64,000 nt of DNA. It comes from Cognatishimia sp. F0-27. GTDB lineage: Bacteria; Pseudomonadota; Alphaproteobacteria; Rhodobacterales; Rhodobacteraceae. The DNA lies in the NCBI RefSeq assembly GCF_020667845.1, contig NZ_JAFMPQ010000029.1, positions 1 to 64,000 on the forward strand. Reading direction: 5' to 3'. Every line of letters starts with the position of its first letter. Position 1 is the first letter of the stretch. The notes beneath the pieces are model-generated. The model was not told where the DNA came from. It made no database searches and worked only from the letters and a program-made list of their open reading frames with translations. Below are positions 38,029-53,841 of the stretch, piece after piece. The position numbers and the translations under genes were made by a program.

Positions 38029-38730
38029 TCAGACAGAGAGATAGGCGTCACGGATTTCGGGATGGGCGTTGAGCTCGGCGAGTGTGCCTTCGAACTTGGT
38101 GGTGCCGCCTTCGATGATCACGGCGCGGTCGGCAACCGCGCGGGCGAAGTGCAGGTTCTGCTCCGACAGCAGCACGGTCAGACCGTCGGCCTTGAGCTGC
38201 GTGATCACATGGGCCATCTGTTCGACGATCACCGGGGCGATGCCTTCGGAGGGCTCGTCGAGCAGCACGAAGCTGGGATTGCCCATGAGCGTGCGCGCGA
38301 TGGTCAGCATCTGCTGTTCGCCACCCGAGAGCGCCTTGCCGCGATTGCCCCGCCGTTCCGCGAGATTGGGGAAAAGCTCGAACAGCATCTCCTCGGTCCA
38401 TTGCACGGTGCCGTCGCGGGCGGGCTGGCGGCCCACTTCGAGGTTTTCGGTGACGGTGAGATCGGTGAAGATGCGGCGTTCTTCGGGCACATAACCAAGG
38501 CCGAGCTTGGCGACCTTGTGGGTCGGCCAGCCGGTGATGTCCTGTCCGTTGTAGCGCACGCTGCCGGAGCCGGGCACCACCATCTGCATGATGGATTTCA
38601 TCGTTGTCGTCTTGCCCGCGCCATTGCGGCCCAGAAGTGCGACCACCTGGCCGCGCGCAACCGAGAAGCCCAGATCGTTGAGCACATGGGCCTTGCCGTA
38701 AAAGCTGTTGATGTCGGATAGCTCAAGCAT
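38029..38730 (-). CDS. livF: Branched-chain-type ABC transporter ATPase LivF
   Basis: 233-residue ATPase of a hydrophobic-amino-acid-type (HAAT) importer. It has MLELSDINSFYGKAHVLNDL at the N-terminus, Walker A LLGRNGAGKTTTMKSIM, signature LSGGEQQMLTIARTLM, and VLLDEPSEGIAP (the LivF-specific Walker B context). It starts 8 nt inside livG. Last gene of the operon, followed by the purine-rich tract. Sequence cannot tell amino acids from aromatic acids or amides as substrate; the linked Rieske oxygenase favours an aromatic compound. Confidence 0.94.
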   Translation of the reverse strand: MLELSDINSFYGKAHVLNDLGFSVARGQVVALLGRNGAGKTTTMKSIMQMVVPGSGSVRYNGQDITGWPTHKVAKLGLGYVPEERRIFTDLTVTENLEVGRQPARDGTVQWTEEMLFELFPNLAERRGNRGKALSGGEQQMLTIARTLMGNPSFVLLDEPSEGIAPVIVEQMAHVITQLKADGLTVLLSEQNLHFARAVADRAVIIEGGTTKFEGTLAELNAHPEIRDAYLSV

Positions 38731-39580
38731 CGGCCGCATCCTCCTGTGCGAAGACCGTGCCGCCGCCGAGATAGACCTCCTGCACGCGCGGGTCGTTGCG
38801 GATGGCTTCGGCGTTGCCTTCGGCGATGAGTTGGCCACGATTGAGCACCATGATGCGGTGCGAATGGGCAAAGACCACGTCCATGTCATGTTCGGTGAAG
38901 AGCACCGACACGCCCCGGTTCTCGACGATCTCCGCCGTGAGCTGCATCAGGCGGATGCGTTCACGCGGGGCCATACCCGCCGTGGGTTCGTCCATGAGCA
39001 GCACCGCAGGATCATGCGCCAGCGCGATGGCCAGTTCCAGCCGCTTGAGATCGCCATACGCAAGCACCGCGCAGTGCCGCTCTGCCTGATCGGCCATGCC
39101 GACCATCTCGAGCAGTGCGAGCGCCTCGTCGCGGTAGAGCCTGTGGGCGCGTGGACGGATCGACAGGATGCGGTGGTGATGCGACATCAGCGCCATCTGG
39201 ACATTCTCGCCCACGGTCATCGACGCGTAGGTGGCGGTGATCTGGAACGTGCGGCCCACGCCCTTGCGCCAGACCTTTCGCGGGTTCATGCCGGTGATGT
39301 TTTCGCCCTTGAGCCAGACCGCGCCCCTGGTGGGGGCAAGCTGGCCCATGAGCATGTTGAAGCAGGTGCTCTTGCCCGCGCCGTTGGGGCCGATCAGCGC
39401 CAGAAGCTCACCCGCTTGCAGCGAGAAGGACACGTCATCGACCGCGACAAGCCCGCCGAAAGCCTTGGTGAGGTTGCGCGTTTCCAAAACGGGGGATGGC
39501 GATGGCGGGGCCTCTGACCGGGTTTCTGACCGGGCCTGTGTGGCGGATTGGGATGCGGGGGGGTGCGATGCGGTGGTCAT
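38723..39580 (-). CDS. livG: Branched-chain-type ABC transporter ATPase LivG
   Basis: 285-residue ATPase. A Ser/Pro/Thr-rich N-terminal tail of about 30 residues precedes LETRNLTKAFGGLVAVDDVS, then Walker A LIGPNGAGKSTCFNMLMG, the LivG-typical GVGRTFQITATYASMTVGEN, and VLLMDEPTAGMAP. The usual LSGG signature reads LAYGDLKRLELAIAL, a substitution common in this subfamily. It starts 4 nt inside the permease gene. Confidence 0.94.
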   Translation of the reverse strand: MTTASHPPASQSATQARSETRSEAPPSPSPVLETRNLTKAFGGLVAVDDVSFSLQAGELLALIGPNGAGKSTCFNMLMGQLAPTRGAVWLKGENITGMNPRKVWRKGVGRTFQITATYASMTVGENVQMALMSHHHRILSIRPRAHRLYRDEALALLEMVGMADQAERHCAVLAYGDLKRLELAIALAHDPAVLLMDEPTAGMAPRERIRLMQLTAEIVENRGVSVLFTEHDMDVVFAHSHRIMVLNRGQLIAEGNAEAIRNDPRVQEVYLGGGTVFAQEDAADA

Positions 39581-41463
39581 GCGGCTTCCTCCCGCGCCTT
39601 GCGCTTGCGGGTTTCCTCTCCGCGCAGCCAGCCCGCGCGTTCGGCCCATTTGCGCGCCGTGCCGACGATGCCCTCGGGCATGACGATCACAACGAAGATG
39701 ATCAGCAGGCCAAGGATCAGGCGCCAGTATTCGAACCGGGTGATGACCTCTTCGAGCCCTTTGAAGGTGGCCGCGCCCACAACACCGCCCGCCAGCGTTT
39801 TCACGCCGCCAAGGAACACGACGATCAGCGCGTCGAAGCTGCGGGCGATCTCCATCTCGTTGGGAAAGACGCTGCCCTTGGAAAACACGAACAGCCCGCC
39901 CGCGAGGCCGGCCATCATGCCGGCAAACCCGAAGCCCAGCCATTGCACGCGTTTGACGTTGATGCCGGTGGCCTCGGCGCGGCGGTCGCTGTCACGGCCT
40001 GCGCGCAGGGCATAGCCGAAGGGCGAATGCGCGACGTGGCGCATGGCGAGGATGCCGCCAATGCAGAGGATGAGCGCGAGGTAGAAGAAGACCGTCGTGT
40101 CGTTGAGCCAGTCGGCGGGCCAGATATTGACCAGCCCGTCATCGCCGCCTGTCACCTCGCCCCATTGGAACACGAGGCTCCAGAGGAGCTGCGCGAAGGC
40201 CAGCGTGAGCATGGCGAAATAAACGCCCGTCAGGCGCAGGCAGACCCAGCCGATGATCAGCGCGCCGAGGCCCGCGCCGATGGGGGCCAGCACGAAGGCC
40301 AGTTCCATCGGGGAGTTGGAATGGGTGACGATGAGCGCGGCCACATAGGCACCGCCGCCGAAATAGGCCGCGTGGCCGAAGCTGACGAGGCCGGAGAGGC
40401 CCATGAGGAAGTGCAGCGAGGCGGCAAAGAGGCAGAAGATCAGGATGTCGGTGGCGAGCACTTGGCTGAAGCTGGAGCCGTAGAGCGGCAGGGCGGCGAG
40501 CGTGGCGATGCCCGCGGCGACAAGCAGGCGGACCTGTGTGCCCGCCGGGCGGATCGGTTTTTCCGGCTCGCCGACCTGGCCGTGTTCGCCCGCCACTTCG
40601 GGCCGTCCGAAGAGGCCGTAGGGGCGGATCATCAACACCAGAACCATGACGACGAAGATCAGCACAAGCGTGGATTGCGGCAGGTAAGTCACGCCGAAGA
40701 CGTTGACCACGGAGATGATGACGGCGGCGAGATAAGCGCCGGGCAGCGAGCCCATGCCGCCGATCACGACGACGACGAAGACCGCCGTGAGGATGTTGAA
40801 ATCCATCAGAAGATCCGCCCCGCCCTTGGGCAGTTGCAGCGCGCCGCCGAGACCGGCGAGCCCGCAGCCCAGCGCGAAGACGCCGGTGAAGAGCCACGCC
40901 TGATTGACGCCGAGCGCGCCGACCATCTCGCGATCCTGCGTGGCGGCGCGGACCAGGACGCCAACGCGGGTGCGGGCAATCAGATACCAGAGCAGCAGCG
41001 CGACGATGGGCGTGATGACCAGCAACGCGATGTCGTATTTCGGCACCGGCTCACCCATGATGCGGATCACGCCGCGCAGGCCGGGTGCGCGCGGGCCGAG
41101 GAGATCTTCGGGGCCCCAGATCATCAATGTAAGGTCAGCCACCACGAGGATGACGCCGAAAGTGGCCACAAGCTGGAACAGTTCGGGCGCGCGATACACG
41201 GGCCGGAGCACGAGGATCTCCACCAGCATGCCGATCACGCCGACCGCGATGCCCGCAAGCAGGATCGCGCCCCAGAAGCCGACCGCGCCGGGCAGCACCT
41301 GCATCAGCGTGTAACCGATATAGGCGCCAAGCATGTAGAAGCTGCCATGGGCAAAGTTGACGATCCGGGTGACGCCGAAGATCAGCGACAGGCCGGAGGC
41401 GACCATGAACAGCGCGCCGGCATTGGCCAGCCCGGTGATGAGCTGCGCGATGAAAAGACCCAT
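39577..41463 (-). CDS. Fused LivH-LivM ABC permease
   Basis: 628-residue membrane protein in which the two permease subunits of a HAAT importer are one chain. The N-terminal half (about 1-295; LSLIFGVTRIVNFAHGSFYMLGAYIG) is LivH-like. A hydrophilic linker (GRPEVAGEHGQVGEPEKPIRPAG) follows at about 290-315. The C-terminal half (GLSGLVSFGHAAYFGGGAYVAAL, then GVYFAMLTLAFAQLLW) is LivM-like. Such fusions are known but less common than separate genes. A strong hairpin separates it from the upstream livK. Confidence 0.93.
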   Translation of the reverse strand: MGLFIAQLITGLANAGALFMVASGLSLIFGVTRIVNFAHGSFYMLGAYIGYTLMQVLPGAVGFWGAILLAGIAVGVIGMLVEILVLRPVYRAPELFQLVATFGVILVVADLTLMIWGPEDLLGPRAPGLRGVIRIMGEPVPKYDIALLVITPIVALLLWYLIARTRVGVLVRAATQDREMVGALGVNQAWLFTGVFALGCGLAGLGGALQLPKGGADLLMDFNILTAVFVVVVIGGMGSLPGAYLAAVIISVVNVFGVTYLPQSTLVLIFVVMVLVLMIRPYGLFGRPEVAGEHGQVGEPEKPIRPAGTQVRLLVAAGIATLAALPLYGSSFSQVLATDILIFCLFAASLHFLMGLSGLVSFGHAAYFGGGAYVAALIVTHSNSPMELAFVLAPIGAGLGALIIGWVCLRLTGVYFAMLTLAFAQLLWSLVFQWGEVTGGDDGLVNIWPADWLNDTTVFFYLALILCIGGILAMRHVAHSPFGYALRAGRDSDRRAEATGINVKRVQWLGFGFAGMMAGLAGGLFVFSKGSVFPNEMEIARSFDALIVVFLGGVKTLAGGVVGAATFKGLEEVITRFEYWRLILGLLIIFVVIVMPEGIVGTARKWAERAGWLRGEETRKRKAREEAA

Positions 41464-41595: not shown

Positions 41596-42807
41596 TCAGT
41601 TGCCGGGACGCAGCTCCATCACCTTTTCGTCAGACGGCAGGTAGTCACCGCCGTATTTATACTCCCAGTCGACCATGACGCCCTTGCCATCGCGCAGAGC
41701 CGTGGTGCCGACATAGGCACCCATGGTCGCCTGATGGTCAATGGCGCGGAAGGTGATATCGCCCATGGCGCTGGCCACTTCGAGCCCCTTGAAGGCCTCG
41801 CGGATCGCGTCCGTTTCGGTGGAGCCTGCACGTTCGAGCGCGGCGGCGATGGATTGCACGGTCATGTAACCGACGATGGAGCCGAGGCGCGGGTAATCGT
41901 CGTAGCGTTCCTGATAGGCCTTGACGAAGGCGCCGTCCGGGCCGTCTTCGAGGTCATACCAGGGGAAGCCCGTCACGACCCAGCCCTCGGGGGCCTCGTC
42001 GCCCAGCGGGTCGAGATATTCCGGCTCGCCCGAGAGCAGACCATAGACCGTGCGCCCGTCGAACAGACCCCGGTCGCCGCCTTCGCGCACAAGCTTGGCA
42101 AGGTCAGTGCCGAAGGTCACGTTGTAGATTGCGTCGGGTTTGGCGCGCTCGATGGCCTGCACCTCCGCGCCTGCGTCGATCTTGAAGAGCGCGGGCCATT
42201 GCTCCGCGACAAACTCCACATCCGGGTTGAGCTCGGTCAGCACTTCCTTGAAGGCGGCCACGGCGTCCTTGCCATAGGCGTAATTCGGCGCGATGGTCGC
42301 GAATTTGGTCGCGCCCGACGCCGCTGCCTCTTCCGCCAGCATCGCCGCCTGCATGTAGGTCGAGGAGCGCAGGCGGAAGGTGTAATCGTTGCCCGATGCC
42401 CAGACGAGGCTGTCTGCCAGCGGTTCGGAGGCAAGGTAGACATAGCCCTTTTCCCCCGCCAGCGAAGAGATCGCGAGGCCCACATTGCTGAGGATCGTGC
42501 CGGTGATCATCACCGCGCCATCGCGGGTCATCAACTCTTCGGCGATCTTCACCGCCTCGCCGGGTTCGCCCTGATCGTCGCGGAAGATGAACTCCAGCGG
42601 ACGGCCCATGACGCCACCGGCGGCGTTGATTTCTTCGAGCGCCAGCTCGATGCCCATCTTGTAGGGCCCGGCAAAGGCGGCCATGCGCTTGTAGTGGTTG
42701 ATTTCGCCCACGATGATCGGGCCGTCCTGCGCGGTTGCGGCAAACGGCGCCATGGTCACGGCCACAGCCGCCCCCATCAGCGTCTTGAGAAATGTCTTTC
42801 GTTTCAT
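41596..42807 (-). CDS. livK: ABC transporter substrate-binding protein (LivK type)
   Basis: 403-residue periplasmic protein with a clear signal peptide (MKRKTFLKTLMGAAVAVTMAPFAATA, cleavage after about residue 26). The mature part is a type-I periplasmic binding fold: IIVGEINHYKRMAAFAGPYKMGIELALEEINAAGGVMGRPLEF. The aromatic/charged NHYKRM segment at the binding site differs from typical branched-chain amino-acid binders. It lies 33 nt after the Rieske gene and heads the transporter genes. Confidence 0.92.
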   Translation of the reverse strand: MKRKTFLKTLMGAAVAVTMAPFAATAQDGPIIVGEINHYKRMAAFAGPYKMGIELALEEINAAGGVMGRPLEFIFRDDQGEPGEAVKIAEELMTRDGAVMITGTILSNVGLAISSLAGEKGYVYLASEPLADSLVWASGNDYTFRLRSSTYMQAAMLAEEAAASGATKFATIAPNYAYGKDAVAAFKEVLTELNPDVEFVAEQWPALFKIDAGAEVQAIERAKPDAIYNVTFGTDLAKLVREGGDRGLFDGRTVYGLLSGEPEYLDPLGDEAPEGWVVTGFPWYDLEDGPDGAFVKAYQERYDDYPRLGSIVGYMTVQSIAAALERAGSTETDAIREAFKGLEVASAMGDITFRAIDHQATMGAYVGTTALRDGKGVMVDWEYKYGGDYLPSDEKVMELRPGN

Positions 42808-42840: not shown

Positions 42841-43908
42841 TCAGTCGTGCTGGACAAATGTCGGCCGTTCCGGCTCTCCAAGATATTCTGTTGCCTCTGC
42901 CTCCACGAGGTCACGGATGCGTTTGCGATAGACATTCGGCCCCTTGTCGATGGCGATGCGAATCGGTTTGCGCTTCTGCGGGCGCTGTTCGGCTTCGTGC
43001 ACCGCTTCGAGCACGGCCACATCCTCGGCAAAGGCGGTGCGGAACATGCCGTCCATCTGCGCAGAGGCGTCCTCGTCACCCTGCGCGCGGTTGCGCAGAT
43101 GCATCCAGTGGTCGATCGTGTAATCCTCGCTGACCGGGGTGACAAAATGAAGGGCAAAGATGCGCACACCCTCGTCGCGGTCTTCCTCGGCGATGTTGCG
43201 CCCGGCCTCGATGGAGCCGAAATCGATCACGGCGGTGGAGGGGATGTGCAGGTGGTAGTAGTGCCAGCGGTCCACATTGCCGGAAAACCCGCCGAATTTC
43301 TGAAAGAACCCGACAGGCGGCGCGTTGCGGATCCAGCGCCACGCGGTGATGACCTTTCCGGCGGTGGAAACGTGCACGGGCACGTCTTCGGAGGCCGACG
43401 AGCCAAGCGTGGTCGGGTGGACAAAGCTCACATGCGCCGGGTCCACGAGGTTTTCGGCCACGTTGAGGTAATGGGCCCGGATATGCAGCGCATCGCCGTG
43501 ATGCGCATGCCAGTTGGGGTCCTCGAACTCGGGCATGTCGAAGATGTCGCCGGGGTCGGCCAGCGCGGGCTCGCCCATCCAGATCCAGACGATGCCGTGG
43601 CGCTCCTCGACCGGGAACGCATCCACATAGGCCGATGCGGGCAGGTTGTCCTGGCCCGGCACGCGCACGCATTTGCCGGCACCATCGAAGGTCATGCCGT
43701 GATAGCCGCATTGGATGGTATCGCCGATGCGCCTGCCCTTGCTCAGCGGCAAGAGCCGGTGCGGGCAGCGATCCTCGAGGGCCACGACCTTGCCCGTCGA
43801 GCTGCGAAAGAGCACCAGCGGCTGGTTGAGGATCGTCAAGGCGCGCAGGGCCTCGCCGAAATCGCGCGACCACCCCGCCACATACCACGCATTGCGAACA
43901 AACTGCAT
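42841..43908 (-). CDS. Rieske non-haem iron oxygenase (vanillate demethylase-like)
   Basis: 355-residue terminal oxygenase. The Rieske [2Fe-2S] ligands are C48-x-H50 (CPHRLLPL) and C67-x2-H70 (CGYHG). The mononuclear iron site is in NVAENLVDPAHVSFVHP (D156, H159, H164). Length and layout match VanA-type oxygenases that demethylate or hydroxylate aromatic acids. No reductase partner gene is adjacent. The start MQFVRNAWYVAGW follows GAGGACCG; an upstream ATG adds 11 unlikely residues. It heads the operon with the Liv transporter, divergent from a MarR regulator. Confidence 0.93.
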   Translation of the reverse strand: MQFVRNAWYVAGWSRDFGEALRALTILNQPLVLFRSSTGKVVALEDRCPHRLLPLSKGRRIGDTIQCGYHGMTFDGAGKCVRVPGQDNLPASAYVDAFPVEERHGIVWIWMGEPALADPGDIFDMPEFEDPNWHAHHGDALHIRAHYLNVAENLVDPAHVSFVHPTTLGSSASEDVPVHVSTAGKVITAWRWIRNAPPVGFFQKFGGFSGNVDRWHYYHLHIPSTAVIDFGSIEAGRNIAEEDRDEGVRIFALHFVTPVSEDYTIDHWMHLRNRAQGDEDASAQMDGMFRTAFAEDVAVLEAVHEAEQRPQKRKPIRIAIDKGPNVYRKRIRDLVEAEATEYLGEPERPTFVQHD

Positions 43909-43985
43909 CTTACGGTCCTCCCGTCCGGTCGGGCGCGCCATGCGGCGTCTCCCGGGTTGGATTGCCTTGATCGGGCCATAAATAC

Positions 43986-44003: not shown

Positions 44004-44086
44004 TTTTTCGGGTTTGGCGCGAATTGATGCCGGGCATGGAGATCTTTGCATGTTTGGGCAGCCCGGCGACGGCAAAGGAACAGGGT

Positions 44087-44509
44087 TTGACCGAGGATGA
44101 TGGACCTGAATACCGGCTTGAGGACCAGATCGGTTACAAGCTGCGGCTGGCCAACCAACGGCATGTGGAGCTGTTCTCGCGGCTGATGCCGGAGGCGACG
44201 CCGACCCAGTTCGCGGTGCTGGCGCGGCTGCGGGAGGTCGGGCCGATCTCGCAGAATCACCTCGGGCGGCTGGTCGGCATGGACGCGGCAACCACCAAGG
44301 GCGTGGTGGACCGGCTCAAGAGCAAGGGGTTTGTCTCCTCCAGCCGGTCGGAGACGGATCTGCGCCGCTTGCAGATTGCGCTGACCGAGGAGGGGCGCCG
44401 CTTCGCCGATGCCGCGGTTTCACGGGCGCGCGAGATTTCCCGGGCCACCGCCGCAAACCTCACCCCGCGCGAGCTGGAGCGGCTGAACGAACTGCTCGAC
44501 AAGCTCTGA
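44087..44509 (+). CDS. MarR family transcriptional regulator
   Basis: 140-residue winged-helix repressor: YRLEDQIGYKLRLANQRHVELF dimerisation helix, ATPTQFAVLARLREVGPISQNHLGRLVGMDAATTKGVVDRLKSKGFVS helix-turn-helix, then a wing with DLRRLQIALTEEG. A TTG start at 44087 was chosen because AAAGGA lies 7 nt upstream and the protein then begins just before the conserved region. ATG codons at 44027 and 44036 would add about 20 residues without a ribosome site. It probably controls the divergent Rieske/ABC operon in response to an aromatic ligand. Confidence 0.88.
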   Translation: MTEDDGPEYRLEDQIGYKLRLANQRHVELFSRLMPEATPTQFAVLARLREVGPISQNHLGRLVGMDAATTKGVVDRLKSKGFVSSSRSETDLRRLQIALTEEGRRFADAAVSRAREISRATAANLTPRELERLNELLDKL

Positions 44510-45372: not shown

Positions 45373-45957
45373 TCAGCGCAACCCATCCTCACCCTTGGCG
45401 TCTTTTGCCTCCAGCCCGCCGACTCGAGGCAGGGGGCGACCGCTATCGGTGACGGCCACGGCGACGAGTATCTCATTGGCGCGCGGCGCGTCATTCATCC
45501 GCACCTCGACCCCGTCGAAATGGCTGCGGACATAGGCCGCGTCCTTATGGCCAAGCGGCACGTCGAGATCCTGCCCCGGTCCACCTCGCTTTTTCGAGGA
45601 GGGCACGAGTGCCGCTCCCTTTTCAACCGCCGCGCGGAGCGGTTTGCCCATGGCCGGGTGCAGCAGGGCGGCGGCATGTTCCAGCTCGCCATTCTCGCCC
45701 ACCATCGCGGCCTTGCCATAGCCTTCAGCCTCGGACGGCGCGATGCCGAGCGCGTCAACGCAGCGCTGCCCCAGAAGCCCGCCGAGCTCCGCGCCAATCT
45801 CGATCAGCGGTGTGAGGTCTTCCTCAAAGATCCCGGCGAAGGGGTTGGCGATCACCGCAACGGCCACGGCTTTGCGGGTCGGCGGATCGATCACGCGGCC
45901 CATTTCCTGATGTGTTTCCTCGACCCAGACGGCCAGCTTGCGGATATCGGCGCTCAT
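45373..45957 (-). CDS. PF06684 (DUF1185/AA_synth) protein, second paralogue
   Basis: 194-residue protein of the 'amino acid synthesis' family PF06684. It begins near ADIRKLAVWVEETHQEMGRV and has GIAPSEAEGYGKAAMVGENG, KRGGPGQDLDVPLGHKDAAYVRSHFDGVEVRMNDAPRANE and a C-terminal GGLEAKDAKGEDGLR. Crystal structures of family members show a variant of the chorismate mutase fold, but no reaction is established. It overlaps its paralogue by 4 nt and is last in the heterocycle operon. It may form a hetero-oligomer with its neighbour. Confidence 0.9.
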   Translation of the reverse strand: MSADIRKLAVWVEETHQEMGRVIDPPTRKAVAVAVIANPFAGIFEEDLTPLIEIGAELGGLLGQRCVDALGIAPSEAEGYGKAAMVGENGELEHAAALLHPAMGKPLRAAVEKGAALVPSSKKRGGPGQDLDVPLGHKDAAYVRSHFDGVEVRMNDAPRANEILVAVAVTDSGRPLPRVGGLEAKDAKGEDGLR

Positions 45958-46535
45958 CTCAGACCGTCCTCTCCCTTGATGTCTTCAACCTTGAGCCCGC
46001 CCGCGCGGTCATGCACACGGGCCCCGGTGGTCATCACCAGCACCAGTGCCAGCTCATCGGCGCGCGGCGCGTCGTTGAGGCCCACCTCCATCGCGTCGAA
46101 ATGGCCGCGCACATAAGAGGCGTCGATATGGGTGATCGGCACATCCAGCCGGGTGCCCGGCGCACCGACCTTCTTGGTGGAGGGCACAATGGCCTTGGCC
46201 CCGCCCAGCACCTCGCGCATGGCGTAGCCGCCCGGCACGTGCCAGAGCGCGCCGTGTTCGATCTCGCCATTGGTGCCGACAATCGCGCCCTTGCCATAGC
46301 CCTGCACGGCATCGGTGCCGCCGAGCATCACCGCAAGGCGCGACGCCATCTGGATGCCCAGGGGCTTGAGATCTTCCATGAAGGGCTGAATGTCCGCCTC
46401 ATAGCGCCCCGCAAAGGGGTTGGCGATCACCGCGACGATGGCGGCCTTGCGCAGGGGCGTGGCCGCGGGCGGGCCGCCCTCATGGTGTATTTCCTCTTCG
46501 ACGGTGAGAATCTTGCGGATGACTGGGTCGGGCAT
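45954..46535 (-). CDS. PF06684 (DUF1185/AA_synth) protein, first paralogue
   Basis: 193-residue protein, clearly homologous to the next gene along its whole length (PTRKAV/PLRKAAIVAVIANPFAG, GYGKGAIVGTNGEIEHGALWH, PGTRLDVPITHIDASYVRGHFDAMEVGLNDAPRADE, GGLKVEDIKGEDGLR). It resulted from a tandem duplication. Conserved GYGKGA and LNDAPRADE segments probably line the active site. It lies 31 nt after the UPF0280 gene in the same operon; an enzymatic role downstream of ring opening is inferred only from position. Confidence 0.9.
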   Translation of the reverse strand: MPDPVIRKILTVEEEIHHEGGPPAATPLRKAAIVAVIANPFAGRYEADIQPFMEDLKPLGIQMASRLAVMLGGTDAVQGYGKGAIVGTNGEIEHGALWHVPGGYAMREVLGGAKAIVPSTKKVGAPGTRLDVPITHIDASYVRGHFDAMEVGLNDAPRADELALVLVMTTGARVHDRAGGLKVEDIKGEDGLR

Positions 46536-46566
46536 GGGGGCTCCTGTCAGGCTCGGGGCTTCGTGG

Positions 46567-47412
46567 TCAGGTCATGAGCGCGGGGTGCGCGGTATCGTCC
46601 GCCATGGTTGTGACGGTCTGGCCGCGCAGAACCAGCGCCGCGGAGTGGATGACACCGCGCGCCCGCAGCGCGTTGGCGCGGGAGAGACCGGCGGCGAGGG
46701 CCGCGTGCACCTCGTGCCGGGTCAGCGCGCCCAGCGCCTGCGTCACGGGACGCGCGCCGAGATCGCTGTCGGGTTGGATCGCCTGCGCCGGCACGCGGGT
46801 CACGGCGGGATGATCCGGCAGATCGACGGCGTTGGCAATCAGTGTTGCGGCGACGTCGGCGGTGGCCGCATCGCACGCCAGAACCGTGACGCTGTCGGCG
46901 ATGCCGAGACTGAGGCTGCGCCCGCCGCGCCCGGAGGTGGCGATTCCGCCAACACCGTCTCCGGCCGAAATCTCGGCCCGGCCCAGAGCGGACGCATCCA
47001 GACCCGCCAGACCGACCCGGAAGCGCCGCCCCCGCGCCAGATGCAGCGCGATGTCCCCGCCATTGTTCACGTAGGCGCGGGTCAGGCGTCCGGCCGACAC
47101 CATGGCGGCGAGCACGGTATCGGCCACAGCGCCCGCCACGGCGGCCATGGGGGTGACAAACGCACGCTCCGCGACGCGCGTGCAGGCCTGTGCCATATGG
47201 CGCGCGATGGCCCCGTCGAGCGGTTGCCCGAGCGGGCGGCGCAGGGCGGGCAGCTCCGCCACAAGCTCGGTCAGGACCGTGTCAAAGCGGTCGCGGGCCG
47301 CTGCGAGCGCGGCTTCACGCGCAGCGCCTTCGGCGCCAATCACGAGGTCGATGGGCCCATGTTGCAGATGGATGCGCCCGCCGCTCAGAGCGGCCATCAC
47401 GGGGCCGGTCAT
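46567..47412 (-). CDS. UPF0280 family protein, ApbE-like
   Basis: 281-residue protein of the uncharacterised UPF0280 family, related in fold to ApbE flavin transferases. ApbE-like motifs are visible: VNNGGDIAL (residues 115-123), GIATSGRGGRS (156-166) and ADSVTVLACDAATADVAATL (172-191). ApbE moves FMN from FAD onto a Thr/Ser of a target protein. The start overlaps the stop of the 6-hydroxynicotinate-reductase-like gene by 4 nt, so the two are translated together. Since that reductase carries covalent flavin in Eubacterium barkeri, dedicated flavinylation is an attractive inference. Confidence 0.85.
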   Translation of the reverse strand: MTGPVMAALSGGRIHLQHGPIDLVIGAEGAAREAALAAARDRFDTVLTELVAELPALRRPLGQPLDGAIARHMAQACTRVAERAFVTPMAAVAGAVADTVLAAMVSAGRLTRAYVNNGGDIALHLARGRRFRVGLAGLDASALGRAEISAGDGVGGIATSGRGGRSLSLGIADSVTVLACDAATADVAATLIANAVDLPDHPAVTRVPAQAIQPDSDLGARPVTQALGALTRHEVHAALAAGLSRANALRARGVIHSAALVLRGQTVTTMADDTAHPALMT

Positions 47413-48890
47413 GCGCCGCCCTTGCCGCGGCGCGCGCGGTGGCGCTGGTGGTCATGCGGGTCGGGCTGGCCGTGTTGGGCGGCAACCTTGCGGATCTCGG
47501 GCGACAGCACGCTGTCCACCGGCTGCACGTGATCCATATGACCACCAAGCGCGGCATAATCGGATTTGCGCAGGGTGAATTCGATGGGAGCCACAAGCGC
47601 GGGTGTGGGCACATACCCAAAGGAATTTGTTGGCATGTCCATCACATCAGCCATGAAGGTGATGCCGCCGCCGGGCCAGACATAGGCCTCCGCCCCGCCG
47701 CAGCTCACATAGGTCAAAGCGTCCTTCACCGATTTGGTCAGCCGCACGGGGTTTTCGGTCACGCCCGCGCGCAATGAGCCGCCCGCGCCGCCCATGAAGA
47801 GCACCGAACAGAGCGAGGGTTCGCAATTCTCCGCAATGCGCTCGCAGCTTGCCAGCAGCGGGGCGGTGATCTCAGCAGGTTGCGGTTCGAGCGCGTCGTC
47901 GAGCGTGAAATAGGCCCATTGCTCGCCCGTGGTGGAAACCATCAGCAGGCGCAGGCCGGGCCATGCCTTTTTCGGGTCGGCGGATTTGAGGATCGTCAAC
48001 GGGTCTTCGACATCGGTGCCGCCCCAACCAGTGCCGGGTTCGGCCACCTGAAAGTAGCGGCCGGGTGTCGACCGCCGCCCGTTGATGCGGATGCCGGAAG
48101 GCGTCATGCCAAGCTGTTTGCCTGCCTCGTGTTCGGTCAGCACGCCGGTGATGTGGTCGTCGACGACGATCACCTCGTCCACATGCGGCTGCCATTGCTT
48201 GGCGAACATGCCGATGGTGGCGGAGCCGCAGCCGACGCGCATGAGCTTTTCCGGGGTGCCGTTGATGATCGGCGCCTGCCCGGCCTGCACGACGATCGTG
48301 GCCCCCTCGTCGATCTCCATCTCCACCGCTTCGCGGTTGCACAGCGCCATGAGCGCGTCACAGGTCACGCGGCCCTCTTTCTTGGAGCCGCCGGTAAGGT
48401 GCTCGACCCCGCCAAGCGAGAGCATCTTGGAGCCGTATTCGGAAGTCATGACATGGCCGATGGGTTCGCCCTGCACGCGCACCACCGCGCGTTCGTGGCC
48501 GATGAACCGGTCGGTGTCGATCTTCACCTTGACGCCGCAATAGCTGAAGATGCCTTCGGTCACGACGGTGACCATGTCCACATCCTCCACCAGCTGGCTG
48601 ACGATGAACGGGGCGGGTTTGTAGTCGGGATAGGTTGTGCCCGCGCCCACGGCGGTGACAAAGGTGCGGTCGCCCTGGATCACATCGCCGTCCCAGTCCT
48701 GCGAATTGCTTTCCTGATCGAGGAACTTGACCGCGCGGGCGCCGCTTTCGATCACGGTGAGCGGATCGAGCCGCACCAGCGTGCCGCCGTGATTGGCGTA
48801 GCGGTCGCAGGCCCCGGCCTTGCCGTCGGCGATGTAGCACATCACCGGGCAGGCGTCGCAGCGGATCTTCTCGGGGGTGTCCTTAGCCAT
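47409..48890 (-). CDS. 6-hydroxynicotinate reductase-like iron-sulfur flavoprotein
   Basis: 493-residue homologue of 6-hydroxynicotinate reductase (Hnr), which reduces the hydroxylated pyridine ring to 1,4,5,6-tetrahydro-6-oxonicotinate. The N-terminal C11-x2-C14-x3-C18-x9-C28 ([20 protein letters not shown]) is a likely [4Fe-4S] site; further cysteines at about 118, 177, 184, 221, 349, 356, 361 and 397 could hold more clusters. GAT (196-198) and GSAT (222-225) are candidate flavin attachment sites. The tail is His/Arg-rich. It overlaps the Mo-hydroxylase stop by 8 nt. The actual substrate is not proven. Confidence 0.85.
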
Positions 48891-51630
48891 GACCGGCCTC
48901 CTTGAGTGCGGCGCGCAGCCGCGCGGGCGTGACGGGCACCTGCCGCAGGGTGGCCCCGGTGGCGCGGGTGATGGCGTTGAGGATCGCGGGTGCCGTGGGG
49001 ATCAGCACATGTTCGCCCAGCCCCTTGGCGCCGTAGGGTCCGTGCGCGTCGGGTTCCTCGACGATGAGCGTGTCGATGGGCGGAATATCCCCGAAGGTGG
49101 GGATCAGGTAGTCATGCAGGTTCTCGGTGCGGCCGGGAATGAACTCCTCCATCAGCGCCATGCCGAGCCCCTGCGCGATGCCGCCATGGACCTGCCCCTC
49201 CACCAGAAGCGGGTTGATCGCGCGGCCCACATCATGCGCGGCGACAAAGCGCAGCACCCGCGTGGTGCCGAGCGCGATGTCCACCTCGACCATGGCGAGA
49301 TGCGCGGCGTAGCCGAACTGCGCGTAGGGCGCGCCCTGCCCCTCCGCGTCCAGCGGCAGGGTCGGCGGGTCGTAGGTTTCGGCGGCTTTCAGGACGTAGC
49401 CTTCGGGGTCGGGTGTGAGCGTATCGAGTCGCAGGCTATGGGTTTCGGCCTTGTCGGTGATGGTGATGCCGTCAGGGCCGGGCGTGATGGTCGCGTCTTC
49501 GGCGGCGTTGACCTGCGCGAGGATGGCGCGGCGCAGCGCTTCGCCGGAAAGCCGCGCGGCGTTGCCGCTCACGAAGGTCTGGCGCGAGGCGGAGGTCTTG
49601 CCCGCATCGGGCGTGATGTCGGTGTCGCCGCCCCTGAGCGTGATGGCAGAGACGGGCACACCGAGCGCCTGCGCGAAGATCTGGGTGATGACGGTGTTGC
49701 TGCCCTGTCCGATATCCGCGGCCCCCTGATGCAGCACGATCTCGCCCGAAGCGGTCAGGCCGCATTTGATCGTGGAGGGGTTGGGCAGGCTGGTGTTGCC
49801 GCAGCCATACCAACCGGCGGCGATGCCGACGCCGCGCCGGGTGGTTGTGGCGGTTTTGTTGAAGCTGTCGGCCTCGGCATTGAGCGATTGCCACGCCGGG
49901 CGCAGCGCCTCAAGGCAGGCGGTGATGCCGACGCCTTGTTCGAAGACCTGCCCGCAGACGGTGGGCTCGCCGTTGGTGAGCGCGTTCTGCAGGCGGAAGT
50001 CGAGCGGGTCGATGCCCAGCTTGGCGGCGAGCGCATCGAACATCACCTCCTGCGCGATGGCCGATTGCGGCACGCCGAAGCCGCGAAACGCGCCGGAAGG
50101 CGTGCCGTTGGTGTAGATCGCGGTGGAGCGCGCCTCGTAATCCGCCACGCGATAGGGACCGGAGGCATGCACCGGCACGCGGTTGGCGACGGTTGGCCCC
50201 CAGCTTGCATAGGCACCGGTGTTGAAGCGCCCGTCGAAATGCAGCCCGCTGAGCGTGCCGTCTTTTGTGGCGCCGATACGGATTGTGATCTCCGCCGGGT
50301 GGCGCTTGGTGGTCGACATCATTGACTCGGTGCGGGAATAGGTGATTTTCACCGGGCGGTTCAGGCGCAGGGCCGCGAGCGCAATAAACGGCTGCATCGA
50401 CACGTCGATCTTGGAGCCGAAGCCCCCGCCGGTGGCGGAAGGGACAACGCGGATCTTCTCCATCGGCAGGGCGAGGATGTCGGCCAGCGTCTCTTGATCC
50501 ATCACCGGGGCCTGCGTGCAACCGTGCACGTGCAAGCGCCCGTCCACCATCTCCGCATAACCCGCTTCCGGCTCGATATAGGCGTGCTCCACATAGGCCG
50601 TGGTGAAACGCCCCTCGACGATTGTATCGGCCCGCGCCAGCGCGCTGTTGGCGTCGCCGTGACGCACGAAGCCGCCGCACATGACGTTGCCCTGCTTGCC
50701 GTCGTGAAGCTGCGGGGCGTGATCGGCGGTGGCCTCGGCCGGGGTCATCACCGCATCGAGCGGCTCCCACGTCACCGGGAAATCCGCAGGATCGAAGGCG
50801 CGCAGCGTGGCGGGATCGGCGACGATAGCGGCAATCGCCTCCCCCCGGAACCGGCCATGCCCTTCGGCAAAGACCGGCTGGTCGATGAAACCGGGGATCA
50901 CGCCGAAGCGGTTCAGGCCGGGAATGTCGCGGGCGGTGAGAACGAGTGCGATGCCGGGGTTCGCCGCCTGCCAGGCATCGAGATCGCCAAGCGTGAAGCG
51001 GGCATGGGCGTGCGGCGCGCGGATCACGCGCAACTCCAGAGCACCGTCCGGCGCGACATCATCGCCGAACCGCTCCCGCCCGTCGAGCTTGGGCCAACCG
51101 TCGAGCCGGGGCAGGGCGTCGCCGATGCGGCCTTGCGGCGCGGGTTCGGGGGCGCAAACGCCGGTGGCGACCACCGCGTCGATGATCTTGCGATAGCCGG
51201 TGCAACGGCAGAGAACCCCGCCCAGGGCATCCTCGACCTGTGTCGCGGAGGGCGCGGGCACACGGCGCAGCAACTCGGCGGCGGCGACCAGCATGCCGGG
51301 CGTGCAGATACCGCATTGCGCCGCCTGATGGGCATGGAACTGCGCCATGAGCGCTTGGGCGACAGGGTCGGAGGCGGCGAGACCGGTCTGGGTATCGACC
51401 CGCGCCCCGTCAACCCGCGCGGCGGGCATCAGGCAGGCGCAGACCGGCGCGCCATCAACCAGCACCGTGCAGGCACCACAATCGCCCGCGTTGCAGCCGA
51501 TCTTGACATCACGCGCCTCCAGACGGCTGCGCAACAGCTCGGACAGGCGCTCCGCAGGGGCCGTATCGGCGGTAACGGGCCGGCCATTGAGCGTGAAACC
51601 GATGCGCGCGATCTGGGTCGGGTTATCCAT
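48883..51630 (-). CDS. Molybdenum hydroxylase, fused [2Fe-2S] and Moco subunits
   Basis: 915-residue xanthine-dehydrogenase-family protein combining small and large subunits. Residues about 1-160 are the iron-sulfur part: [12 protein letters not shown] (C46, C51, C54, then C64/C66) and QCGICTPGM ... CRCTGY (C106, C109, C141, C143). The rest is the molybdopterin-binding catalytic part: [19 protein letters not shown] and the catalytic Glu in YGAKGLGEH. In context it should hydroxylate a ring carbon next to nitrogen, as nicotinate dehydrogenase does. The start [12 protein letters not shown] has a G-rich site and overlaps the FAD-subunit gene by 8 nt. Confidence 0.92.
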
Positions 51631-52465
51631 GCTGCCCCCCCTGCCCCGGCACGGCCCGGGCGATGGCGCGGGCGATGAGCGTCCCGGCCGCGTCGCGGCG
51701 ATAGCCTGCATCGCCACGGATGTCGTCAATCGGAGACAATGGCGCGACCTGCGCCGGCGTCATGCGCTCCAGGATCTCGTCCGGAGCCGCCCCCGTCAGC
51801 GCGGCTTCCAGCGCGGGCAAACGCTGCGCCACCGCAGAACAGGCCCCGACCGCCACCCGCGCCGTGTCGATCCGACCGTCCTTCATGGAGACCAGCGCCG
51901 ACACCATGGCGATGGAAATCACCAGGTATTTTCGCGCGCCAAGCTTCAGGAAACTGCCGCGCGCGGCACCGGGATCGGGGATATGCACGGCGCGAAGCAG
52001 CGCGCCCTTCGGCAGCGCGGTCTGGCGCACGCCGGTGAGGAACCGGCCAAGCGGGGCGCGGCCCGGGCCGGTCGGCCCGATCCAGGAGACCTCCGCATTG
52101 AGACACAGGAGCGGCGGCACGCCGTCGGCCGCTGGCGAGGCATTGCAGAGATTGCCGCCAAGGGTGCCCGCGTTCTGGATCTGCACCGAGCCGACCTCGC
52201 GCGCGGCGGCCTTGAGCCCGTCAAACGCAGGCGGCAGATCGGCGCGCAGGATCTCGGTCCATGTGGTGAGCGCTCCGATCTCCCAGCCATCGTTGACACG
52301 GCGAATGCCCCCGAATCCGTCCAGCGCCGTCAGATCGAGCACATCGGCAGGAAGCGGTGCCGCGCCCCTGGCCGGATACCAATCGGTGCCGCCGGCAATC
52401 GGCGCAGCCCCGTCCGCCAGAAGCGCAAGCGCAGCCTCGACGGAATGCGGTCGGTGATAGCCCAT
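51623..52465 (-). CDS. Molybdenum hydroxylase FAD-binding subunit
   Basis: 280-residue CoxM/NdhF-type flavoprotein subunit that passes electrons from the iron-sulfur centres onward. FAD motifs AGGTDWYP near residue 27 and [15 protein letters not shown] near 100 are present, with a CO_deh_flav_C-like tail. The start [13 protein letters not shown] has GGAG at 7 nt; an earlier ATG adds 11 residues with no site. First gene of the minus-strand heterocycle operon. Confidence 0.92.
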
Positions 52466-52523
52466 GATGGCTCCAAACTGCGTAAGCGACCGATGCATGC
52501 CTGAAGACCCACCGGCCGGACTG

Positions 52524-52539
52524 TTCGTTAGTATACGAA
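52524..52539. promoter_or_regulatory. Candidate GntR-type operator of the heterocycle cluster
   Basis: TTCGTTAGTATACGAA, containing TTaGTATACgAA, a palindrome centred on GTATAC as in many GntR (FadR/VanR) operators. It lies between the FAD-subunit gene and the divergent enamidase gene. A perfect TTGACA (minus strand, 52564-52569) starts 24 nt above, so the site would cover the -10/+1 region of the minus operon. No GntR gene is within the window. Confidence 0.45.
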
Positions 52540-52662
52540 TAGAAAACGCGGCAGCGCCCTGCCTGTCAAATGGTTTCGCACAAGAGTCGCCCGCAGGTCT
52601 CTGAACGCTTGATCGAGACGCCCGATCTGTTAGCGTTCAAATGAAAATGACAGGAGGTCCGG

Positions 52663-53841
52663 ATGTCTGAAACCCCGCATAAACTGGTGATCCGCAATGT
52701 CGGGCTGATGCTGTCCGGGCGGATCGAAGCGCCTGTTCTGGACGCCGATTGCCTTGTGGCGCTGGACGGGCGCATCGCGCAATGGGGCCACGAGGCGGAT
52801 CTTGACACAAGCGGTGCGGAGACAGTGATCGATGCCCATGGCGTGACGCTTTCCCCGGGCTTGATCGACAGCCATGTGCACCCGGTGGTGGGCGATTATA
52901 CCCCGCGCCAACAACAACTTCACTGGATCGACAGCACCCTGCATGGCGGCGTGACGACGATGATCTCCGCCGGTGAGGTGCATATGCCCGGCCGGCCCAA
53001 TGACCCGGTGGGCACCGTGGCCATGGCGATCGCGGCGCAGCGCTGGTACGACAATCTGCGCCCTTCGGGCGTGAAGATGCATGCGGGCGCGCCACTTCTG
53101 CAAAAAGGCCTTGAGGAGCATCACTTCAAGCAGATGGGCGAAGCCGGTGTGCGGCTCATCGGCGAGGTCGGGCTAGGCACGATCAAGGACGGCAAGACCG
53201 CTCACGAAATGGTCGGCTGGGCGCGCAAATACGGGATGCAATCGACGATCCACACCGGCGGCCCGTCGATTCCCGGCTCCGGATTGATCGACGCGGACAT
53301 GGTGCTGGATACCGGGACGGATGTGGTCGGCCATATCAACGGCGGCCATTCCGCCCTGCCGGATGACCAGATCATCTGCATCTGCGAAAACTGCAAGGCG
53401 GCGCTGGAAATCGTGCACAATGGCAATGAGCGCGCAGCCCTTCTGACGCTCAACACCGCGCGCGAGCTTGGCAAGCTCGACCAGGTGATTCTCGGCACGG
53501 ACGGGCCTGCCGGATCGGGCGTGCAGCCCTTGGGGATCCTGCGGATGGTTGCCATGCTGTCTGCCCTCGGAGACGTGCCCGCGGAGGTGGCGTTCTGCTT
53601 TGCGACCGGCAACACCGCGCGGCGGCGCACGCTTGATGTCGGCCTGATCGAAAAAGGGCGCGCGGCGGATTTCGTACTGATGGACCAGGCGCAGCACGCA
53701 CCGGGCAAGGATTTGCTCGACTCAGTCCGGCTCGGGAATTTGCCCGGCGTGGGGATGACGGTCATCGACGGCATCGTGCGCTCTCAACGCAGCCGCAACA
53801 CGCCACCGGCCACGCGATTGCCGGAAATCGTGACGCAGTAG
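52663..53841 (+). CDS. Enamidase-like amidohydrolase
   Basis: 392-residue metal-dependent amidohydrolase strongly resembling Eubacterium barkeri enamidase, which opens 1,4,5,6-tetrahydro-6-oxonicotinate to 2-formylglutarate and ammonia. Metal ligands: H71-x-H73 (DSHVHP), bridging E168 (GEVGLGTIK), H197 (HTGGPSIPGS), H224 (GHINGG) and D280 (GTDGPAGSG). The family-specific segments LHGGVTTMISAG, HMPGRPNDPVGT and SRNTPPATR are also conserved. AGGAGG precedes the ATG. Transcribed divergently from the hydroxylase/reductase operon. Assignment to the enamidase subgroup rests on remembered sequence similarity. Confidence 0.87.
   Translation: MSETPHKLVIRNVGLMLSGRIEAPVLDADCLVALDGRIAQWGHEADLDTSGAETVIDAHGVTLSPGLIDSHVHPVVGDYTPRQQQLHWIDSTLHGGVTTMISAGEVHMPGRPNDPVGTVAMAIAAQRWYDNLRPSGVKMHAGAPLLQKGLEEHHFKQMGEAGVRLIGEVGLGTIKDGKTAHEMVGWARKYGMQSTIHTGGPSIPGSGLIDADMVLDTGTDVVGHINGGHSALPDDQIICICENCKAALEIVHNGNERAALLTLNTARELGKLDQVILGTDGPAGSGVQPLGILRMVAMLSALGDVPAEVAFCFATGNTARRRTLDVGLIEKGRAADFVLMDQAQHAPGKDLLDSVRLGNLPGVGMTVIDGIVRSQRSRNTPPATRLPEIVTQ

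Follow-up and report, generated by a model that had tools for sequence, protein, structure and literature searches.

A stretch of 64,000 nucleotides from Cognatishimia sp. F0-27 (contig NZ_JAFMPQ010000029.1, positions 1 to 64,000; hereafter the window) carries a seven-gene cluster built around Hnr, a protein of the 6-hydroxynicotinate reductase family. The cluster probably serves the uptake and reductive degradation of nicotinate or a closely related compound, with the neighbouring UPF0280 protein as a maturation partner of Hnr. The operon is real and well conserved; its pathway is known, and its hydroxylase is a less well described variant. Because the route is known and hnr orthologues have already been named by NCBI, the pathway itself is not new; the new points are UPF0280 as a partner of Hnr, the presence of two PF06684 clades, and the exchangeability of the first and third enzymes.

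Gene organization and family assignments

All seven genes were recovered by open reading frame (ORF) calling of the window, six on the minus strand and one on the plus strand. The minus-strand genes encode the flavin adenine dinucleotide (FAD) subunit of a molybdenum (Mo) hydroxylase (51623-52498), a fused [2Fe-2S]/molybdopterin subunit that is the predicted nicotinate 6-hydroxylase (48883-51630), Hnr (47409-48890), the UPF0280/COG2122 protein (46567-47412), and the PF06684 paralogues A (45954-46535) and B (45373-45957). The plus-strand gene (52663-53841) encodes an enamidase homologue, a metal-dependent amidohydrolase predicted to open the ring. Neighbouring minus-strand genes overlap by 8, 8, 4, and 4 nucleotides, with a single 31-nucleotide gap at 46536-46566. 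The fused subunit has an in-frame ATG at 51630, the TTG at 51729 being an over-extension of its start. The seven genes, their overlaps, and the gap had been described in the same way in a first-pass annotation, whose assignment of Mo-hydroxylase, UPF0280, PF06684 (twice), and enamidase homologue is likewise borne out by Pfam, NCBIfam, and the enamidase structure 2VUN. The neighbourhood search for the co-occurring gene set that was proposed there returned the same gene order from dozens of genomes, and this is therefore no chance arrangement.

Hnr and its association with UPF0280

Hnr was assigned from its conservation and from the names of public orthologues, which are recorded as 6-hydroxynicotinate reductase; that of Sulfitobacter pontiacus is 84% identical. 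No Pfam or NCBIfam model matches Hnr. A bradyrhizobial orthologue is 42% identical to Hnr of Eubacterium barkeri and comes from a strain that metabolises nicotinate (PMC3511419). Hnr was found in 44 of 289 alphaproteobacterial genomes, with an identity of ~60-71% outside the window's own genome; a 45th match of 32 residues was left out of the count. It also occurs in 28 of 378 genomes of a phylum-wide draw and in 4 of 369 genomes of the class of G598. A scan of 84,980 species, with one genome each, gave 80 named Hnr loci, mostly from Rhodobacterales and other Alphaproteobacteria, and also from Granulosicoccus and one Acidobacteriaceae metagenome-assembled genome.

A UPF0280 profile search of the same 289 genomes retrieved the identical 44 genomes and a weak partial match in G143, and UPF0280 adjoins Hnr in the Hnr loci of the phylum-wide draw. 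Both genes are present in 124 of the 130 collected loci, 116 of them within 250 bp. In L086, L088, L091, and L104 they lie 4-9 kb apart and both are kept; such separated cases weigh most, because neighbours are inherited together. An apparent absence of UPF0280 in L074 and L100 was refuted, since the L074 copy lies just past the flank and the L100 copy is intact on another contig. The other absences among the collected loci involve contigs that are short or that end nearby. UPF0280 thus accompanies Hnr in essentially every genome examined and is therefore probably needed to build it; very probably it is a partner of Hnr or a factor in its maturation. The first-pass annotation had left new chemistry and maturation side by side for UPF0280; as the protein tracks Hnr, a maturation role is more likely than a separate chemistry.

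Two side observations concern the distribution of these genes. A lone, distant UPF0280-like protein (L205, 8982-9776) is encoded in an alphaproteobacterium without Hnr, where its gene adjoins methyltransferase and old-yellow-enzyme-type genes. In addition, hnr is plasmid-borne in Sulfitobacter pontiacus (L225) and in 25 other plasmid records, several from Sulfitobacter, Rhizobium, and others, and may therefore move between lineages; the Sulfitobacter plasmid loci have the same gene order as the window.

Fold and possible function of UPF0280

UPF0280 matches NF003322 with 354.6 bits (cut-off 290), and its AlphaFold2 model has a predicted local distance difference test score (pLDDT) of 92. The closest structure to the model is DVU1097 (2O34, Z 20.3), followed by ApbE/Ftp flavin transferases at Z 14.7-16.6, the best of them extending over 215 residues, and other folds appear only from Z 7.9 down. 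In a profile comparison with ApbE, the GGD/GGE, ATSG, and D-x3-T motifs align. Residues S160, D186, and T190, which are present in at least 110 of 111 UPF0280 sequences, line up with the active-site Ser and the Mg-type Asp/Thr of ApbE. UPF0280/COG2122 might accordingly be pictured as a cytosolic flavin transferase descended from ApbE with a re-made active site, which would flavinylate Hnr, perhaps at Thr378, and by extension would mature COG1900 enzymes of sulfur metabolism. This proposal is tentative and we hold it to be rather doubtful; if true, it would give a single chemistry to COG2122, so far called sulfur trafficking. Alhapel et al. (2006) reportedly found covalently bound flavin, together with iron-sulfur (Fe-S) clusters, in Hnr of E. 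barkeri. The motif [A/S]G[V/A]T, with Thr378 as its last residue, is found in 120 of 121 Hnr sequences and is so loose that it could occur by chance, and a relaxed form of the ApbE target, [S/T/A]G[A/V][S/T], is likewise found in 120 of 121.

Several points weigh against flavin attachment. His257 of Vibrio cholerae ApbE has been described as absolutely conserved, and the H257G substitution abolishes transfer; in UPF0280 the segment with this essential His is deleted, and no His is invariant in the 111 sequences. The strict target D-x-x-[S/T]-G-A-[S/T] occurs in 0 of 121 Hnr sequences. Moreover, COG2122 is required together with DUF39/COG1900 for homocysteine synthesis and has been described in terms of sulfur trafficking (PMC12068725, PMC5764234).

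These two papers, the missing catalytic His, and the eight invariant Cys of Hnr would all fit an alternative in which UPF0280 brings sulfide or Fe-S clusters, not flavin, to Hnr, as has been proposed for MA1715 with COG1900. This is quite conceivable, if short of probable, given that UPF0280 clearly adopts the ApbE fold, that the Ser and Mg-type Asp/Thr positions are kept, and that UPF0280 itself has no invariant Cys in the 111 sequences. Collectively, flavin attachment and sulfur or Fe-S supply to Hnr are considered about equally likely. It is very improbable that UPF0280 instead matures the Mo-hydroxylase, for example by providing its Mo-sulfur ligand: the shared operon and the sulfur trafficking proposed for COG2122 would allow it, but UPF0280 remains with Hnr where a NicAB-like enzyme replaces the fused hydroxylase. 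Maturation of Hnr is therefore the preferred role of UPF0280.

Elsewhere in the window's genome, on separate contigs, lie two ordinary ApbE genes (G000:C52:17177-17968 and G000:C86:9298-10017), which could also flavinylate proteins. Among control genomes, the UPF0280 model matches only in two methanogens, both with PF01837, and PF01837 is absent from the window's genome. A kinship of Hnr to COG1900 (PF01837) was considered and dropped, as Pfam scans gave no hint of it. An AlphaFold2 model of Hnr from 30 sequences reached a pLDDT of 67, and its best VIA-align match has a Z of 4.3 (T-protein barrel, residues ~118-216). A Pfam scan of 30 members hints at a GCV_T_C-like barrel in 27 of them, with E values down to 4e-5, and the Hnr sequence profile gave no match against the PDB.

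Hydroxylase, ring opener, and substrate

The enamidase homologue is identical to E. barkeri enamidase (2VUN) at 179 of 383 positions (47%, E 4e-108). It has the same metal-ligand pattern, with the HxH motif (His71/His73), Glu168, His197, and a His and an Asp further along all identical. The FAD subunit (PF00941 and PF03450, FAD_binding_5/CO_deh_flav_C) is homologous to the CO dehydrogenase medium chain and to chain C of E. barkeri nicotinate dehydrogenase (3HRD). For the fused subunit, which contains Fer2, Fer2_2, Ald_Xan_dh_C, and MoCoBD_1/2 domains, the best single chain is the aldehyde oxidoreductase 1DGJ with 381 bits. Chains A, B, and D of 3HRD score 258, 200, and 102 bits, and their sum of 561 bits exceeds every single chain listed. 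The top NCBIfam match is Se-dependent xanthine dehydrogenase, below its cut-off.

The modularity of the pathway was examined in the 107 Hnr loci that span 15 kb or more. The fused hydroxylase is present in 87 loci and the NicAB-like genes in 12, never together. The latter encode a Mo and cytochrome c protein and a [2Fe-2S] protein, are annotated as nicB in Neorhizobium, and take the place of the fused hydroxylase around the same Hnr-UPF0280 pair in rhizobial and Bradyrhizobium-like loci, which supports nicotinate as the substrate. Similarly, the enamidase occurs in 56 loci and the caprolactamase-like HyuA in 24, again never together. HyuA/HyuB, of the ATP-dependent lactamase family, lie near Hnr in L080, L081, L085, L092, L095, L096, and L099, and in class loci such as L116, L121, L130, and L149, and they likely open the ring in place of the enamidase. 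At least six changes of ring opener and at least four of hydroxylase are seen along the Hnr tree. Fisher tests gave 5e-10 for enamidase/HyuA and 5e-11 for hydroxylase/NicB, values that ignore relatedness. Tree-independent pairs all agree with these associations, with only 2-5 informative pairs and a median p of 0.25. The associations of the end enzymes, and of the PF06684 proteins described below, are strong by count but comprise few independent contrasts. Reductive nicotinate catabolism appears modular, with a fixed reductase core and exchangeable first and last enzymes.

Since the fused hydroxylase differs from NicAB, the same reductive logic might act on another N-heterocycle, such as a hydroxylated pyridine or a pyridine carboxylate other than nicotinate. 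The xanthine dehydrogenase (XDH) model ranked first by NCBIfam, the predominance of the fused hydroxylase over NicAB, and a Rieske oxygenase that sometimes accompanies the cluster are consistent with this. However, Hnr is ~60-75% identical across both hydroxylase types, which switch repeatedly on its tree, suggesting the same reaction, and nicotinate dehydrogenase 3HRD is the best match of the fused subunit by summed chains; a different substrate is thus considered unlikely. Two points nevertheless count against nicotinate degradation as assigned here: the substrates of XDH-family enzymes are not readable from sequence, and the genes identified next to Hnr in the window include none for ferredoxin, for its reductase, or for glutarate. 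In relatives, electron-supply genes do occur near Hnr, namely ferredoxin-NADP reductase (Fpr) in 24 loci, FdxA in 6, and KorAB in 4, which fits a ferredoxin-dependent reductase; some Hnr loci also contain glutarate CoA-transferase-like and glutaryl-CoA dehydrogenase-like genes.

Two clades of PF06684 proteins

Both PF06684 proteins score 243-244 bits against a gathering score of 27 (E 7e-73 for A and 2e-72 for B), and A also matches the structure 3BYQ (E 3e-58). In a tree of 185 sequences, A and B form separate clades with two label changes. Clade A is present in 77 of the 107 Hnr loci and is the sole PF06684 clade in 14, all of them without enamidase, whereas clade B is present in all 56 enamidase-bearing loci. 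PF06684 B directly adjoins an enamidase gene distant from Hnr in L114, L119, L132, L147, and L219, and in genome G001 it lies beside the enamidase on one contig, with Hnr on another accompanied by A only. Many conserved polar residues are common to A and B, and both therefore look like enzymes.

Distant PF06684 proteins were also observed next to enamidase-like amidohydrolases that are themselves distant, sharing 37-41% identity with that of the window, and that have no Hnr nearby. L220 and L221 are from genomes without an Hnr match, whereas the genome of L224 has Hnr at a different locus. These three loci suggest a wider partnership of PF06684 proteins with amidohydrolases.

Surrounding genes and candidate operator

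The operon unit probably extends to a regulator, a Rieske oxygenase, and an ATP-binding cassette (ABC) transporter at 38.0-44.5 kb. The probable regulator of the unit is of the MarR type (44024-44509, plus strand; PF01047), and a MarR-family gene lies near Hnr in many loci. On the minus strand follow the VanA-like Rieske oxygenase, an optional associated gene (42841-43941; PF00355 and PF19112), and an ABC substrate-binding protein of the LIV/urea type with a probable role in substrate uptake (41596-42807; PF13458). Further along the same strand are an ABC permease (39577-41463), with a permease family match, and two ABC ATPases (38029-38889, and 38723-39943 as an ORF with an over-extended start); all three fall into the same families as ABC genes found at other Hnr loci. 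The order of MarR, VanA-like Rieske, and LIV-type transporter genes is the same in the closest relatives, for example L033, L034, L037, L038, and L040. The substrate-binding protein family occurs in 43 of the 107 Hnr loci and the Rieske oxygenase in 18, 16 of which have the same binding-protein type. The oxygenase could possibly perform an upstream demethylation; a literature search gave no support for it as a trigonelline demethylase, which remains speculation.

A perfect palindrome in the divergent promoter region, TTCGTTAGTATACGAA (52524-52539), is a candidate MarR operator. Even when up to three mismatches are allowed, it matches nowhere else in the window (0.02 expected), and variants with two or three mismatches lie close to the start codons of the same genes in L037, L038, and L071. 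An additional hydrophobic protein of ~474 residues, probably a membrane protein, recurs next to the alternative LIV-type transporter, in L128 (6918-8342) and in roughly twelve further loci, and it has no Pfam or NCBIfam match.

Proposed pathway and comparison with known systems

What was observed is which genes are present, their homology and conservation, the folds, and the co-occurrence; from these we infer the following steps and roles. The ABC transporter would import nicotinate or a close relative, and the Mo-hydroxylase, composed of the FAD and fused subunits, would convert nicotinate to 6-hydroxynicotinate. Hnr would reduce the latter to 1,4,5,6-tetrahydro-6-oxonicotinate with ferredoxin-level electrons, and the enamidase would then open the ring of this cyclic enamide, giving ammonia and 2-formylglutarate; the product would be passed on towards glutarate. 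UPF0280 would install a cofactor of Hnr, either covalent flavin or otherwise sulfur or Fe-S, and PF06684 B may work with the enamidase and A at the Hnr stage. Ring opening by an E. barkeri-like reductive logic, as first suggested for this DNA, is thus supported in part: the hydroxylase-Hnr-enamidase logic and its partner genes are borne out. As had been remarked earlier, none of the later fermentation genes (the 2-methyleneglutarate mutase branch) was noticed among the annotated window genes, with no systematic search made and the genome not searched; this is expected, because the literature routes this pathway through glutarate.

Of the first three enzymes of the E. barkeri nicotinate fermentation (3HRD, Hnr, and 2VUN), nicotinate dehydrogenase and enamidase have homologues and Hnr a probable homologue in the window, which differs in having the Fe-S and Mo domains fused in one subunit of 915 residues and in containing the UPF0280 and PF06684 genes. 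A reductive nicotinate cluster has been reported in Azorhizobium, Bradyrhizobium, Rhodopseudomonas, and strain SG-6C (PMC3511419); with the Azorhizobium, Bradyrhizobium, and SG-6C cluster, from aerobic alphaproteobacteria, the window has in common Hnr, the enamidase, the ABC transporter, and conserved unknown proteins. The Afipia-like, Bosea-like, and similar loci (L108, L112, L210, and L211) use a NicAB-like hydroxylase with cytochrome c, whereas the window has the fused XDH-type enzyme. These results could aid annotation in many marine and soil Proteobacteria, including the plasmid copies in Sulfitobacter.

The PF06684 family also includes TgnF/HcdD and the structures 3BYQ and 2QTP; the window has two specialised paralogues, of which B tracks the enamidase. 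With the ApbE/Ftp flavin transferases, UPF0280 has in common the fold, the Ser of ATSG, D-x3-T, and GGD/GGE, but it lacks the essential-His segment, shows nothing that points to a lipoprotein or to export, and is accompanied by a degenerate target motif. Desulfovibrio DVU1097 and Methanosarcina MA1715 (COG2122) belong to the same family and fold (profile E 1e-10); their known partner is COG1900, in homocysteine synthesis, whereas the partner in the window is Hnr. UPF0280 as an obligate partner of Hnr is a valuable lead: a family known otherwise from the sulfur metabolism of methanogens and sulfate reducers is tied here to a well-defined enzyme in culturable aerobic bacteria, and its function is therefore directly testable.

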